Positions 2,540-45,509 of a DNA stretch of 64,000 nt are shown in pieces. This DNA comes from Pusillimonas caeni. GTDB lineage: Bacteria; Pseudomonadota; Gammaproteobacteria; Burkholderiales; Burkholderiaceae_B. The stretch is taken from positions 620,001 through 684,000 of the forward strand of contig NZ_PDUW01000001.1 in the NCBI RefSeq assembly GCF_003545815.1. Direction: 5' to 3'. The notes beneath the pieces were generated by a model. That model was given only the letters and a program-made list of their open reading frames with translations, had not been told where the DNA came from and did not search any database. A program made the position numbers and the translations under genes. Position 1 is the first letter of the stretch. Every line of letters begins with the position of its first letter.

Positions 2540-2764
2540 ATGAAACGCCTATATCCCCTGACCGAACTGGAAGCCGCCATCAATTATTGGCGCAATCTTT
2601 CGCCCTCCCGGGGCGAGGAACTGGCCCTGTGCCCCCAGGCCGCGGCCCTGGCCGAGCCCTATGCGCTGATGATCTACGAGTCGCGCGGCGAAATCGAAGC
2701 CGAGGCGCTGTCGGACGAGGCGCGGCAGGCTCTGGCCGAGTGGGAAGCCGCGGCGCGGCGATGA
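2540..2764 (+). CDS. DUF3717 domain protein
   Basis: A 74-aa acidic protein that begins with YPLTELEAAINYWRNLSPS and has ELALCPQAAALAEPYALMI, the features of the short DUF3717 family common in Burkholderiales. The function is unknown. It is divergent from phaM with 126 bp between the starts, and is followed within 40 bp by the first 100-bp hairpin repeat. The codon use matches its neighbours. Confidence 0.8.
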   Translation: MKRLYPLTELEAAINYWRNLSPSRGEELALCPQAAALAEPYALMIYESRGEIEAEALSDEARQALAEWEAAARR

Positions 2765-2798
2765 TTTTTGAATTTGACTCTTGGGCGTCGTCTGTATT

Positions 2799-2898
2799 CT
2801 TAAACGCCGCCGAAGGCGATGCTGTTTGGGCCGGTCGGTCGGGCGGTCCGAGGCAACGCCCTCCAACGCCCGGCCCAAACAGCATCGCCTCCGACGGC
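2799..2898 (-). repeat. 100-bp hairpin repeat, copy A (core-conserved, variable stem)
   Basis: Read on the minus strand this is a 27-nt left arm (2898-2872), a 39-nt core, a 27-nt right arm and the 7-nt tail GTTTAAG. The arms pair over all 27 positions, 25 Watson-Crick and 2 G-U. The core holds GGGCGTTGGAGGGCG, TGCCTCGGACCGCC and CGACCGACC, which can fold further (GGGCG/CGCCC and GAGG/CCTC). Copies B, C and D have the same length, core and layout. It is head-to-head with copy B. The 122 bp between A and B (2899-3020) hold no gene. The whole pair lies between two convergent genes. Confidence 0.9.
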
Positions 2899-3020
2899 TT
2901 GCATCGGCGGCTGACCCAGGATGCAAACATCTTAAGCTGAGGCGTCTCGCATAAGGCAAGATCCAAATACTCCCCTGCCTCACAATAGAACACTAGCTTG
3001 TATGGCTTGCCCCGACATAA

Positions 3021-3120
3021 GCCGCTGGAGGCGGGACAGCTTGAAACGGGCGTTGGAGGGCGCTGCCTCGGACCGCCCGACCGACCGTTTCAAGCTGTCC
3101 CGCCTCCAGCGGCGTTTAAG
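3021..3120 (+). repeat. 100-bp hairpin repeat, copy B
   Basis: On the plus strand: left arm 3021-3047, core 3048-3086, right arm 3087-3113 and tail GTTTAAG. The arms are perfectly complementary over 27 nt and pairing extends two bases into the core. The core differs from copy A by one base (C for T). The outer third of the arm (GCCGCTGGAGGCG) resembles the other copies while the inner 14 nt are unrelated to them. It is preceded by CATAA and followed 35 bp later by the end of the convergent NUDIX gene. Confidence 0.9.
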
Positions 3121-3155
3121 GACTCAACTCAAATTAGCTACCTTCAAAAAACACC

Positions 3156-3983
3156 TCATTGAGACAGCAGCCGCCGTATCAGGCCTTCGATCACCACCAG
3201 CTCGGCCTCGACGGTGAAACGGCCTTCCTGTATCAGGGACCAGGCCTCGTCGATGGTGACCGCGCGGATCTCGTCGACCTCGCCGTCCTGATTGCTCATG
3301 GACACCGAGTCGTCCAGCACGCATTCGCTGACGAGCACATCTTCCACCTGGTAGCCCTCGGGCAGCCGCCGATGCATGCGCAGGATGATGCGCAGCGGAG
3401 AACGCTGTTTCAGATGTTCCGGCAGCAGCCCGGCCTCTTCCTGGCTTTCGCGCAGCAGCGAAGCGTCCAGGGTTTCCCCCGCGACGGCCAGGCCGCCGAC
3501 CAGCGTGTCCCACATGCCGGGGTCGGTCGATTTGGCGGCCGAGCGCAGCGCAATCCACAGGCGGCCGTCCGGCGTCCAGGCGTTGAGGTGCACCGCGCGG
3601 GTCAGCATGCCCAGCGGCCGGATGGCGGCCCGCTCGATGACGCCCAGGGTCTTGCCCTCGCCGACCACGTCCAGCAGTTCGTCGCGCCAGGCACGCAGGC
3701 AGCCCGCATCGCGCATCAGCAAGGCGGCCTGCGCCAGCACCTGATTGATCTGCAGCCGGCGGCCGGCCGCCGCGCCGTCGATGCACACCGCCTCGGGCTC
3801 GATCCGCACGCCTTCGAGCGCAGCCAGCGCGCGCGTTGCGCGCGGCGTGATCCAGCCCGCGACGCGGCCCGTCACGGTCAGCGGCCGCGAGCCGGAAGGC
3901 GGCAATTGCTGGATGCGGGGCACGAGCCGGCCGTAGCGTTTCTCGAGCGTTGGAAGCAGCGATCTGGCTGGATGAGGGTTCAT
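3156..3983 (-). CDS. NUDIX hydrolase with DUF4743-type N-terminal domain
   Basis: A 275-aa protein with a NUDIX box at residues 164-186 (G-x5-E-x7-RESQEEAGL), with all acidic metal ligands present and Ser at one hydrophobic position. The N-terminal 130 residues resemble the DUF4743 domain found in plant Nudt20/24-like and fungal thiamine-related NUDIX enzymes. The substrate is not predictable; oxidised thiamine diphosphate derivatives are one possibility for this subfamily. The ATG at 3983 is preferred over a TTG 26 codons upstream, although neither has a clear ribosome site. It is convergent with the repeat pair and divergent from the cytochrome oxidase operon. Confidence 0.85.
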   Translation of the reverse strand: MNPHPARSLLPTLEKRYGRLVPRIQQLPPSGSRPLTVTGRVAGWITPRATRALAALEGVRIEPEAVCIDGAAAGRRLQINQVLAQAALLMRDAGCLRAWRDELLDVVGEGKTLGVIERAAIRPLGMLTRAVHLNAWTPDGRLWIALRSAAKSTDPGMWDTLVGGLAVAGETLDASLLRESQEEAGLLPEHLKQRSPLRIILRMHRRLPEGYQVEDVLVSECVLDDSVSMSNQDGEVDEIRAVTIDEAWSLIQEGRFTVEAELVVIEGLIRRLLSQ

Positions 3984-4077
3984 GCGGCAATTGTAATGTA
4001 AGGCCCTTTGCGCTTTACCAACGTCCGTCCAGAAGCCTAATATGTAGGGGGCGGCAACCAAGAGTTCGTCAGTTCGC

Positions 4078-44032: not shown

Positions 44033-44417
44033 CAATACTTCTCCTTAATTCCCCAAGGGCCTGTTAACACGAAAAAAGGCGGCCGCGCCGGCCGGCAAAG
44101 GCGAGGCAGGCCAGGCGCGAATCAAGCCGCATGGCCGACCTACGCGACGGGCACGCGGCAACGCACGCTTATGGGCCGCGGCAGCCCCGGACTGCATGGG
44201 ACACCGCAGCTTATGGGTGAAGCTTAACTGATTAGATCGTTATATAGAATGCGGTTCGGCGCCCTGGGCATTATAGGCGGCTATGTAGCAGACACTACAA
44301 AAGCTGCAATGCCTGCGGCCCAGGCGGTATCATGCGATAACGCCATTGTGCCAAAAGACTCCGATTCCATGACGCCTCCGCCAGCATTGGCTGGCCGACT
44401 TGATACCCAGACCCAGC
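44033..44417. other. Intergenic region between fghA and the RAYT-like gene
   Basis: 385 bp without a supported gene. It holds the fghA ribosome site, a GC-rich self-complementary run (GGCGGCCGCGCCGGCCGGC) near 44080-44100 and an AT-rich stretch (GATCGTTATATAGAAT) near 44235-44250 that could be a promoter for the RAYT-like gene. No direct or inverted repeat of the 100-bp family was found here. Confidence 0.4.
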
Positions 44418-45164
44418 ATGGCCCGACTTTCGCGCCTTTATGCGCCCGACACGCCGCAACTCGTCCAGGTCCGCTTCACGCGGCCGCTGGCGCCGCCCAA
44501 CGAGGCCACGCCCGCGGACAAGCTGGACCTGCTGGCCGGCTGGCTGCGCGACGCGGCGCGCGAAAACCATGTGCCCGTGCATGGCTGGATGCTGCTCAAC
44601 GACCGCCTGGCCCTGCTGGCCACGCCGCCCGACAAGACCGGCCTGGCGCGTACCGTTCAGGCCGTGGGGCGCCGGTTCGCCACCCGCATTCAAAAAGGGC
44701 GGGTATTCTCGGAACGCTATCGCAGCGCCCTGCTGCAGCCCGGCGCCTGGGTCCTGCCCGCGCTGATCTGGCTGGAGCGGCTGCCGGTGCAGCTCGGCTA
44801 TGTGGACGATGCTGGCAGATGGCCCTGGTCTTCGGCGGCGCAACATACGGGCCTGGCTTCCGCCGCCGCGCGCTGGACGACGGAACACGCCGACTACTGG
44901 CACCAGGGGAATACGCCTTTCGAGCGCCAGGCGCACTATCGTCGGCTGCTGGAACAGGGGCTACCCGCTACGCAAGCGCGGCGGGTGGAAGAGGCTTTGT
45001 TCGGCCAATGGGCCTTGGGCGATGAAGCTTTTCTCGCGCGCATCGGCCGGGACTCCACCCGCCGGCTTCTTCCCGCCAAGCGCGGACGCCCGCCCAGGCA
45101 GACCGTCGTTGAATCGGAGCCCCGATCCGACGAGCCGCGGGAAGAGGATGCGTCCTCTGCCTGA
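44418..45164 (+). CDS. REP-associated tyrosine transposase (RAYT)-like protein with degenerate active site
   Basis: A 248-aa protein with the architecture of RAYT/IS200-like Y1 transposases: VPVHGWMLLNDRLALLATP in place of the usual x-x-MPNHVHLL, TGLARTVQAVGRRFATRIQKG-RVFSERYRS, LGYVDDAGRWPWSSAAQH, and the RAYT C-terminal hallmark WALGDEAFLARI followed by KRGRPPR. The HUH metal-binding motif is gone (DRLAL) and the expected catalytic Tyr region (GRRFATRI) has no Tyr. It is therefore probably not a working nuclease; it may be a domesticated DNA-binding protein or a decaying gene. The reading frame is intact. Two 100-bp hairpin repeats follow within 65 bp. Confidence 0.75.
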   Translation: MARLSRLYAPDTPQLVQVRFTRPLAPPNEATPADKLDLLAGWLRDAARENHVPVHGWMLLNDRLALLATPPDKTGLARTVQAVGRRFATRIQKGRVFSERYRSALLQPGAWVLPALIWLERLPVQLGYVDDAGRWPWSSAAQHTGLASAAARWTTEHADYWHQGNTPFERQAHYRRLLEQGLPATQARRVEEALFGQWALGDEAFLARIGRDSTRRLLPAKRGRPPRQTVVESEPRSDEPREEDASSA

Positions 45165-45228: not shown

Positions 45229-45328
45229 CTTTAACGCTGTCGGAGGCGGCCTGCCTGGGGCCGGGCGGTCGGGCGGTCCGAGGCAGCGCCCTCCAACGCC
45301 CGTCCCCAGGCAGGCCGCCTCCGACAGC
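45229..45328 (-). repeat. 100-bp hairpin repeat, copy C
   Basis: Read on the minus strand: left arm 45328-45302, 39-nt core, right arm, tail GTTAAAG. The arms pair at 26 of 27 positions, 25 consecutively. The arm starts GCTGTCGGAGGCG, close to copy A, then diverges (GCCTGCCTGGGG). It is head-to-head with copy D, with 81 bp of gene-free sequence between them (45329-45409), and begins 65 bp after the RAYT-like gene. Confidence 0.9.
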
Positions 45329-45409
45329 TTATATTTGGGCAGGCCACACGAGCCGGCGTTCTTCTGAAAAAAGGAGTCTTCACACATCCGTGGCAGGTCA
45401 CAATCGCAA

Positions 45410-45509
45410 GCCGTCGCGGGCGGTGCCGTTTATGCCGGGCGTTGGAGGGCGCTGCCTCGGACCGCCCGACCGCCCGGCATAAACGGCATCGCCCGCGACG
45501 GCGCTTTAG
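45410..45509 (+). repeat. 100-bp hairpin repeat, copy D
   Basis: On the plus strand: left arm 45410-45436, core 45437-45475, right arm 45476-45502, tail GCTTTAG. The arms pair at all 27 positions, one as G-U. It is preceded by CGCAA, as copy A is preceded by TGCAA on its own strand. It lies upstream of the gltB control region. Confidence 0.9.

Follow-up and report, generated by a model that had tools for sequence, protein, structure and literature searches.

Among the described palindromic repeats of bacteria, REPs, BIMEs and REPINs come closest in organisation to the hairpins considered here: in the passages drawn on, they are dispersed, intergenic and palindromic, lie after genes and form dimers of opposite orientation (PMC3733652, PMC2817692, PMC3116915). 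There, REPs are given as 20-40 bp in size (PMC3733652), and BIMEs are struck by insertion sequences (PMC1525189). The same partial account describes the TIRs of TIRYTs as moderately abundant inverted repeats, some of them self-complementary or dimeric, tied to RAYT-like genes whose transposases retain the HUH motif and the tyrosine (PMC3733652, from which, together with general knowledge, we take the meaning of the HUH motif). The BRE of Hot et al. (2011) was portrayed, in the part of that paper used here, as a multi-copy, mostly intergenic, GC-rich and partly tandem repeat of about 90 bp (75-91 bp at full length) in Bordetella, Comamonadaceae and Azoarcus, with its bprJ copy transcribed in B. 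pertussis (PMC3110155). ERIC and NEMIS/Correia, named in parts of PMC3110155 and PMC2267715, are likewise palindromic intergenic repeats able to form RNA hairpins. Finally, excerpts of two further papers treat template switching at imperfect palindromes as known (PMC8794818, PMC7202029), and one of these proposes that it creates and maintains RNA stems (PMC8794818).

The hairpins described here, four of which lie in the window (the whole 64,000-nucleotide stretch of Pusillimonas caeni DNA that was analysed), behave like BIME/REPIN pairs yet fall outside the REP definition. As in those systems, the units form inverted dimers, and IS-like ends are found in the core and after the tail. However, the hairpin spans about 93 nt, and in place of a short palindrome of 20-40 bp it combines a variable, covarying stem, whose 28-bp arms extend into the core, with a fixed core. 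A related long form further carries a structured domain of about 120 nt. By eye, the ends of the aligned unit show neither GTAG/GTGG nor CGTC. The core does contain GGAG, a string with 0 occurrences in the two papers searched for it. A cognate RAYT with HUH is likewise missing: each genome has one RAYT-like match, below the family cut-off and with its HUH lost, and, unlike the TIRYT transposases of the account above, this gene is not regularly linked to the repeats. ERIC and NEMIS/Correia are conserved in sequence along their whole length and are not known to combine a fixed core with stems that differ from copy to copy. The BRE, compared by description only, is the closest published candidate for the long form and a possible relative: both are multi-copy across Betaproteobacteria, although section 14 of the BRE paper mentions neither long variable arms nor divergent pairs (PMC3110155). 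Rfam 15 gave 0 matches in the window at the gathering cut-off, and no paper on the short hairpins was found in the open-licence PMC literature.

The four hairpins of the window

Copies A, B, C and D were located in the sequence, all four at the coordinates and on the strands first assigned to them (Table 1). Read on the sense strand, each begins with a 28-nt arm, followed by 35 nt of core and 2 further nt, then by the second 28-nt arm and a tail like GGCGTTTAAG. Over the 28 arm pairs of each copy, A has two G.T mismatches, D one G.T, C one A.G and B none; the earlier statement that three of the four arm mismatches are G-U is thus correct. The inner 14 nt of the arms were also said to differ in every copy while remaining complementary. 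Complementarity holds in 4/4 copies; the family comprises two stem subtypes, X and Y, and therefore part of the difference among A-D is one of subtype. In the AB spacer, the X motif beside A (minus strand) ends in GATGCAA ahead of the arm, and the Y motif beside B (plus strand) has GGCTTGCCCCGACATAA in that place. RNA folding of the sense strand yields z values of -9.9 to -11.7, with 0/200 dinucleotide shuffles as good; the antisense strand folds strongly too (z -8.3 to -10.1), because a near-palindrome must fold on both strands.

Table 1. Hairpin copies, spacers and neighbouring genes, in positions of the window.
Feature	Position	Strand	Details
Copy A, X type	2799..2898	-	5' arm 2871-2898; core 2836-2870; 3' arm 2806-2833; tail from 2805 downwards
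Copy B, Y type	3021..3120	+	5' arm 3021-3048; core 3049-3083; 3' arm 3086-3113; tail from 3114
Copy C, Y type	45229..45328	-	5' arm 45301-45328; core 45266-45300; 3' arm 45236-45263; tail from 45235 downwards
Copy D, X type (typed by eye)	45410..45509	+	5' arm 45410-45437; core 45438-45472; 3' arm 45475-45502; tail from 45503
Spacer of pair AB	2899..3020	.	Both upstream motifs (motif listing)
Spacer of pair CD	45329..45409	.	Y motif (minus strand, beside C) and X motif (plus strand, beside D) (motif listing)
Unit AB	2771..3157	.	Between DUF3717 gene and Nudix gene; absent at the P. noertemannii orthologous site (blastn)
DUF3717 gene, left neighbour of AB	2540..2764	+	Points toward the pair; Pfam PF12512, E 1.1e-25
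Nudix hydrolase gene, right neighbour of AB	3156..4061	-	Points toward the pair; Pfam PF00293, E 1.2e-10
RAYT-like gene adjoining pair CD, upstream of gltB	44400..45164	+	NCBIfam NF047646, E 1.6e-5, 24.8 bits (cut-off 80)

A dispersed family of divergent X/Y pairs

A 36-base core pattern with at most 3 mismatches finds 47 copies in the 4,436,390-base genome of P. caeni (G000), and its reversed control finds 0; Pusillimonas noertemannii, of the same genus, has 11 intact copies. The preliminary description had called for a search of this genome and its relatives, with a restriction to four copies, or arms that fail to pair, as the outcome that would tell against a family: dozens of copies were found, and their arms are complementary. 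A half-core pattern (at most 2 mismatches) marks 53 places in G000, the 47 among these. The others are two cores interrupted by IS-like DNA (C2:172, C22:214707), edges of long-loop copies at C19:81, C20:296315 and C23:96127, the first two of which may be one locus, and C11:229041. The reading of C23:96127 as a chance match was dropped, this place being the edge of a long copy. With C23:96127 and C11:229041 left out, 51 core or half-core matches remain: 13 are single, and the other 38 make up 19 pairs whose members are separated by less than 600 bp. All 19 close pairs picked up by the core pattern in G000 are divergent (-,+). An exception, locus L127, lies outside the reach of this count: there a long copy (+) and its short neighbour (-) are turned towards one another. 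The partners of a pair differ in upstream motif and outer stem, and these differences define the X and Y subtypes, assigned over the 47 copies by a motif rule in 35 cases and by eye in 12. In several copies the tail extends, as judged by eye, into degenerate tandem units of about 35 nt each.

By a simple ORF rule applied to 31 loci, both neighbouring genes were called at 23 (10 convergent, 10 co-directional, 3 divergent), one neighbour remaining uncalled at the other 8; locus AB counts as co-directional by this rule and becomes convergent once the DUF3717 gene is included. Among 268 genomes of the family Burkholderiaceae_B, the short form is found in G000, G001, G002 and one contig of G259. 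Pattern matches in G217 and G072 have no support from model R1, and a 41-bit match in G001 (L092) was inspected and not accepted as a member.

On contig 112 of G259 (L089:1-290), a core is flanked by a 131-bp inverted repeat, identical at 129 positions and running up to the contig start, which is either a true fold-back duplication or a library artefact; its upstream flank recurs in G001 (L088), there running into a normal tail. At L010 and L033, tail sequence lies on both sides of the hairpin, which is most simply explained by deletion between the two like arms of a pair. In G000, a common left flank at the end of contig 20 and the start of contig 19 (L221, L149) is followed by a hairpin pair in one and a collapsed single hairpin in the other, representing coexisting variants or a misassembly.

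Covarying stems and the strand asymmetry of their wobble pairs

The test of arm covariation over many copies, as first proposed, was made on an alignment of 57 of the 58 copies from the two species (L010 omitted; row L020 shifted at its outer end). A structure of 36 pairs has 98.5% of its cells paired (98.1% in the variable outer helix), with double changes at 27/36 pairs and in 408 cells. Shuffles give 79.0% paired, 18.1 pairs with double changes and 99.8 such cells, and 0/500 reach the observed values; structures slid along the alignment pair only 37-48% of cells. Further, arms score a mean of 26.0 with their own partners as against 10.2 when swapped between copies. L010 alone has many better-scoring partner arms, its two arms stemming from different copies. 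The consensus stem runs beyond the 28-nt arms into the core, with 6 further pairs, an asymmetric internal loop containing one pair, and innermost a 5-bp stem with an 11-nt loop.

The preliminary description had also proposed a fold of defined orientation, and this is upheld on the larger data. With L010 and L029_511 (a deletion that puts its arms out of register) left out, the remaining 45 copies of G000 have 32 G.T against 4 A.C wobbles (35 vs 7 if L029_511 is retained), and the 11 of P. noertemannii have 19 against 0. Pooled, 51 vs 4 corresponds to P 2e-11 if the copies were independent, which related copies are not; reduced to distinct classes of position and pair, the G000 wobbles number 14 vs 4. 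Most of the asymmetry comes from the outer stem (47 G.U, 2 A.C); over arm positions 1-19, the two species taken together, the bias is weak (9 vs 3). Other mismatches are rare: 12 of 1260 cells in G000 (11 A.G or G.A, 1 G.G) and 5 in P. noertemannii, with A.G at arm position 3 recurring. Since the two kinds of wobble are one mismatch viewed from either strand of double-stranded DNA, either the fold of one strand is constrained or mutation is strand-biased. We take the asymmetry as pointing to an oriented single-stranded fold, with which RNA and single-stranded DNA are alike compatible.

The inner stem behaves differently. In the outer ten pair columns, 85 cells hold alternative Watson-Crick pairs and 47 hold G.U, whereas the inner stem has 306 alternative Watson-Crick cells and 10 G.U (odds ratio 17 relative to the outer part). 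Arm lengths in the 58 copies are 28/28 in 47, 29/29 in five and 27/27 in four, the two outliers being the recombinant L010 (unequal) and the deletion copy L029_511 (not measurable); the length rule tries 28 first, and L082 reaches 28/28 only once an insertion of eight bases next to its core is discounted. These paired changes of length, together with the rarity of G.U intermediates beside the core, favour fold-back template switching as the source of the matched changes. Each half of the original suggestion has support: selection on a single-stranded hairpin in the oriented wobbles of the outer stem, and replication through such a hairpin in length changes and scarce intermediates that resemble template switching. 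Since template switching can keep arms paired, their complementarity is not in itself proof of selection. In two long copies of G000, a stem has taken the place of the conserved internal loop; it pairs perfectly over 23 bp in the copy that ends contig 20 and almost so in the copy at C23:96014, and these two may be of common origin.

Orthologous sites and homogenisation of the loop

At the site of AB in P. noertemannii (L075), 17 bp separate the aligned flanks as against 387 bp here (blastn; L075 1482 matches window 2770, and L075 1500 matches window 3158). Model R1 finds no hairpin in L075, no hairpin is present at the P. noertemannii site matching CD, and no target-site duplication was seen at AB. 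Other copies are common to both species, with flanks 82-93% identical on both sides. In five hairpins matched by position, 109/140 stem pairs are unchanged; 17 are double Watson-Crick replacements, 10 have switched between G.U and Watson-Crick through a change on one side, and the remaining 4 include a mismatch. The clearest of these is L063 vs L018_704, which have an unusual stem in common.

The loop follows the genome. All 11 cores of P. noertemannii have ACAAA, whereas the 47 of G000 have TCGGA (37), TCGGT (7) or singletons (3), and in 5/5 of the orthologous hairpins TCGGA in G000 faces ACAAA in its partner. As the loop differs in all five and the stems are their own, the core has been homogenised between copies of one genome, a simpler account than parallel change at each site. 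At L064/L144, hairpins in the same place have wholly different stems. At L068, a short hairpin of P. noertemannii corresponds to a long one in G000, and the inner stems of the two differ, so that a swap of cores in place is no more than a candidate reading of this site. A conversion tract of about 45 bp is short for RecA-dependent exchange.

The long form

At L071, the place of the X partner beside a short Y hairpin is held, at the usual spacing, by a hairpin whose loop is about 130 nt longer and whose arm ends, core edges and tail are like those of the short hairpins. This long form contains, inside its loop, a conserved structured domain of about 120 nt; places where it was observed include L071:2256-2520, L127:1661-1920 and L154-L213. 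The ends of contigs 19 and 20 had been considered as insertion sequences, a candidate that was dropped, these ends being a long-loop copy. Copies within the family Burkholderiaceae_B have conserved internal loop strands GCTGACGAAGGGA / GGACGAGGCAGA. By blastn, scored for at most a few matches per genome, the long form occurs in 25/268 genomes and 11/43 genera of that family. In an alignment of 34 long copies, 98.8% of cells are paired, and double-change cells number 116 as against 31.0 in shuffles (0/500 equal this). At E<=0.001, covariance model R2 (strict filters, 9 candidates scored per genome, no shuffled control) has matches in 55/399 genomes and 28/159 genera of the order, those outside its own family being mostly of 35-55 bits.

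In 39 long copies, the pairing score of the outer arms is 27.8 within a copy and 7.6 after swapping, where related copies give a maximum of 32.0; the wobbles of these arms are 21 G.U vs 5 A.C. Arms are absent at L185 (7.0) and weak (15-16) at L176, L161:1503 and L174:1039. Of 19 cases in which two neighbouring long copies lie within about 600 bp of each other, 15 are -,+, two +,-, one -,- and one +,+; the long pair L155 of G000 is +,-. Searches of the window and of a plasmid collection found no long form. Rfam 15 gave nothing above the gathering score at 33 long-form loci bar one tRNA elsewhere in L189, its sub-threshold matches to miRNA precursors falling on the hairpins. The presence of the long form in many genera, with no Rfam match at the loci tested, means that the order-wide element may be unannotated. 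In Pusillimonas, most copies are found without the 120-nt domain and with a loop of about ten bases, and the reading that best suits the short hairpins is that they derive from the long repeat by collapse of its loop.

The RAYT-like gene and insertion sequences

The RAYT-like gene beside CD has no Pfam match, and at E<=0.01 there is one match in each of three Pusillimonas genomes, none above the cut-off of the family model. The HUH histidines are replaced in all three orthologs (NDRLALL or NDRLVLL), and the Y1_Tnp Pfam model has 0 matches in the G000 genome. At the corresponding loci of P. noertemannii and G001 (L072, L074), model R1 finds no hairpin. With HUH lost and hairpin-free loci in the other two genomes, the gene is probably not the mobiliser, a role that was set aside also for want of regular linkage to the repeats; judged by its sequence, it looks domesticated, and its link to CD looks incidental.

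IS-like DNA, called by its ends and not assigned to any IS family, is present at fixed points of hairpins and at contig ends of G000. Two such ends, TGTCGTGGTC, lie at one core position after CTCGGAC (L011:1-430 and the end of L032), and a repeated end, TCTATGGTCAGCCCGC, directly follows the tail AAGAA at L014, L025, L029 and L033; L024 is a further locus with IS-like sequence at the hairpin.

Origin and maintenance of the hairpins

We propose, with a probability of roughly 0.6, that A-D belong to a dispersed, non-autonomous family of outward-facing intergenic X/Y pairs, derived from a larger, order-wide structured repeat, whose arms are kept matched chiefly by template switching and whose loop is homogenised. 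The usual unit would be an outward-facing pair of hairpins between genes, typically one X and one Y, and the putative parent would be the larger repeat that is seen in many genera of the order with the same kind of variable outer stem around its domain of about 120 nt. Long hairpins can form from these sequences, and as the wobbles appear almost only as G.U on one strand, the single-stranded form of that strand would matter. One arm would template the other by fold-back switching in replication, and this would produce paired length changes and, beside the core, double changes without intermediates. The core loop is homogenised between the copies of a genome, and the simplest mechanism would be gene conversion over short tracts, kept to the core by the differences between the arms; orthologous hairpins retain stems of their own yet carry the loop of their species. 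As a unit, the pair is probably mobile or once was, and in its intergenic place it may serve both as an RNA hairpin and as a target for insertion sequences, like BIMEs.

Several features could also reflect pure selection on a functional RNA, such as a UTR or small-RNA hairpin undergoing compensatory evolution via G.U, with a core kept for a species-specific trans-acting partner: the wobble bias is oriented and falls chiefly in the outer stem (47 G.U vs 2 A.C), the internal loops of the long form are conserved across many genera, and the hairpins lie after genes (10 convergent and 10 co-directional of 23 loci, as against 3 divergent). We nevertheless hold this to be unlikely, as arm lengths shift only together in the 56 intact copies, the inner stem is heavily changed with few G.U intermediates, and the loop differs in parallel across five orthologous hairpins. 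At the other extreme, the palindromes might be neutral, their stems kept by template switching alone, without function, and the wobble bias reflecting strand-biased mutation. The paired length changes and few intermediates suit this, as does the template switching at imperfect palindromes recorded in the excerpts cited (PMC8794818, PMC7202029), but an asymmetry of 51 vs 4 in two species exceeds the mutation bias that we would expect, and the core persists along with its internal loop, which makes a purely neutral origin quite improbable.

Mobility admits explanations of another kind. Were these REP/BIME elements moved by a RAYT transposase, opposite-orientation pairs in intergenic positions, IS-like insertions and a RAYT-like gene abutting CD would be natural; however, that gene is without HUH histidines and is matched once per genome, P. 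noertemannii and G001 have no hairpin at its loci, the GTAG head is absent and the hairpins are far longer than REPs, so that we give this origin very little credence. We also weighed an attC-like origin and a retroposon origin. More generally, the hairpins might be ends or relics of an element mobile through single-stranded DNA or RNA (an HUH transposon or a retroposon), each hairpin a recognised end and the tandem tail units insertion scars. The oriented single-strand constraint, the presence or absence of copies between species and, as judged by eye, both a 3' tail resembling GGCG(C/T)TTAAGAAC that recurs among several genera and the degenerate tandem tail units are consistent with this. 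Against it, no target duplication was seen, and no enzyme was found, the pair spacers having been examined for coding genes by ORF length only; the odds of such a relic appear slight indeed.

Returning to the preferred reading of template-switched arms and a homogenised loop, we tentatively extend it to concerted evolution at two levels, a generalisation that we rate as less likely than not: stems may be rewritten as units by fold-back copying, while the loop core may be overwritten by conversion over very short tracts, with the short hairpins descending from an unannotated order-wide structured RNA repeat, perhaps through the same core overwriting. How long RNA stems stay matched on both sides as they drift in sequence has been asked for a long time, and here tens of dispersed copies, some of them orthologous, allow compensation, paired length changes and loop homogenisation to be observed separately. 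If the core does homogenise over about 45 bp between dispersed sites, it would test the lower limit of bacterial gene conversion, and the family as a whole offers a natural test of how matching stems are maintained.
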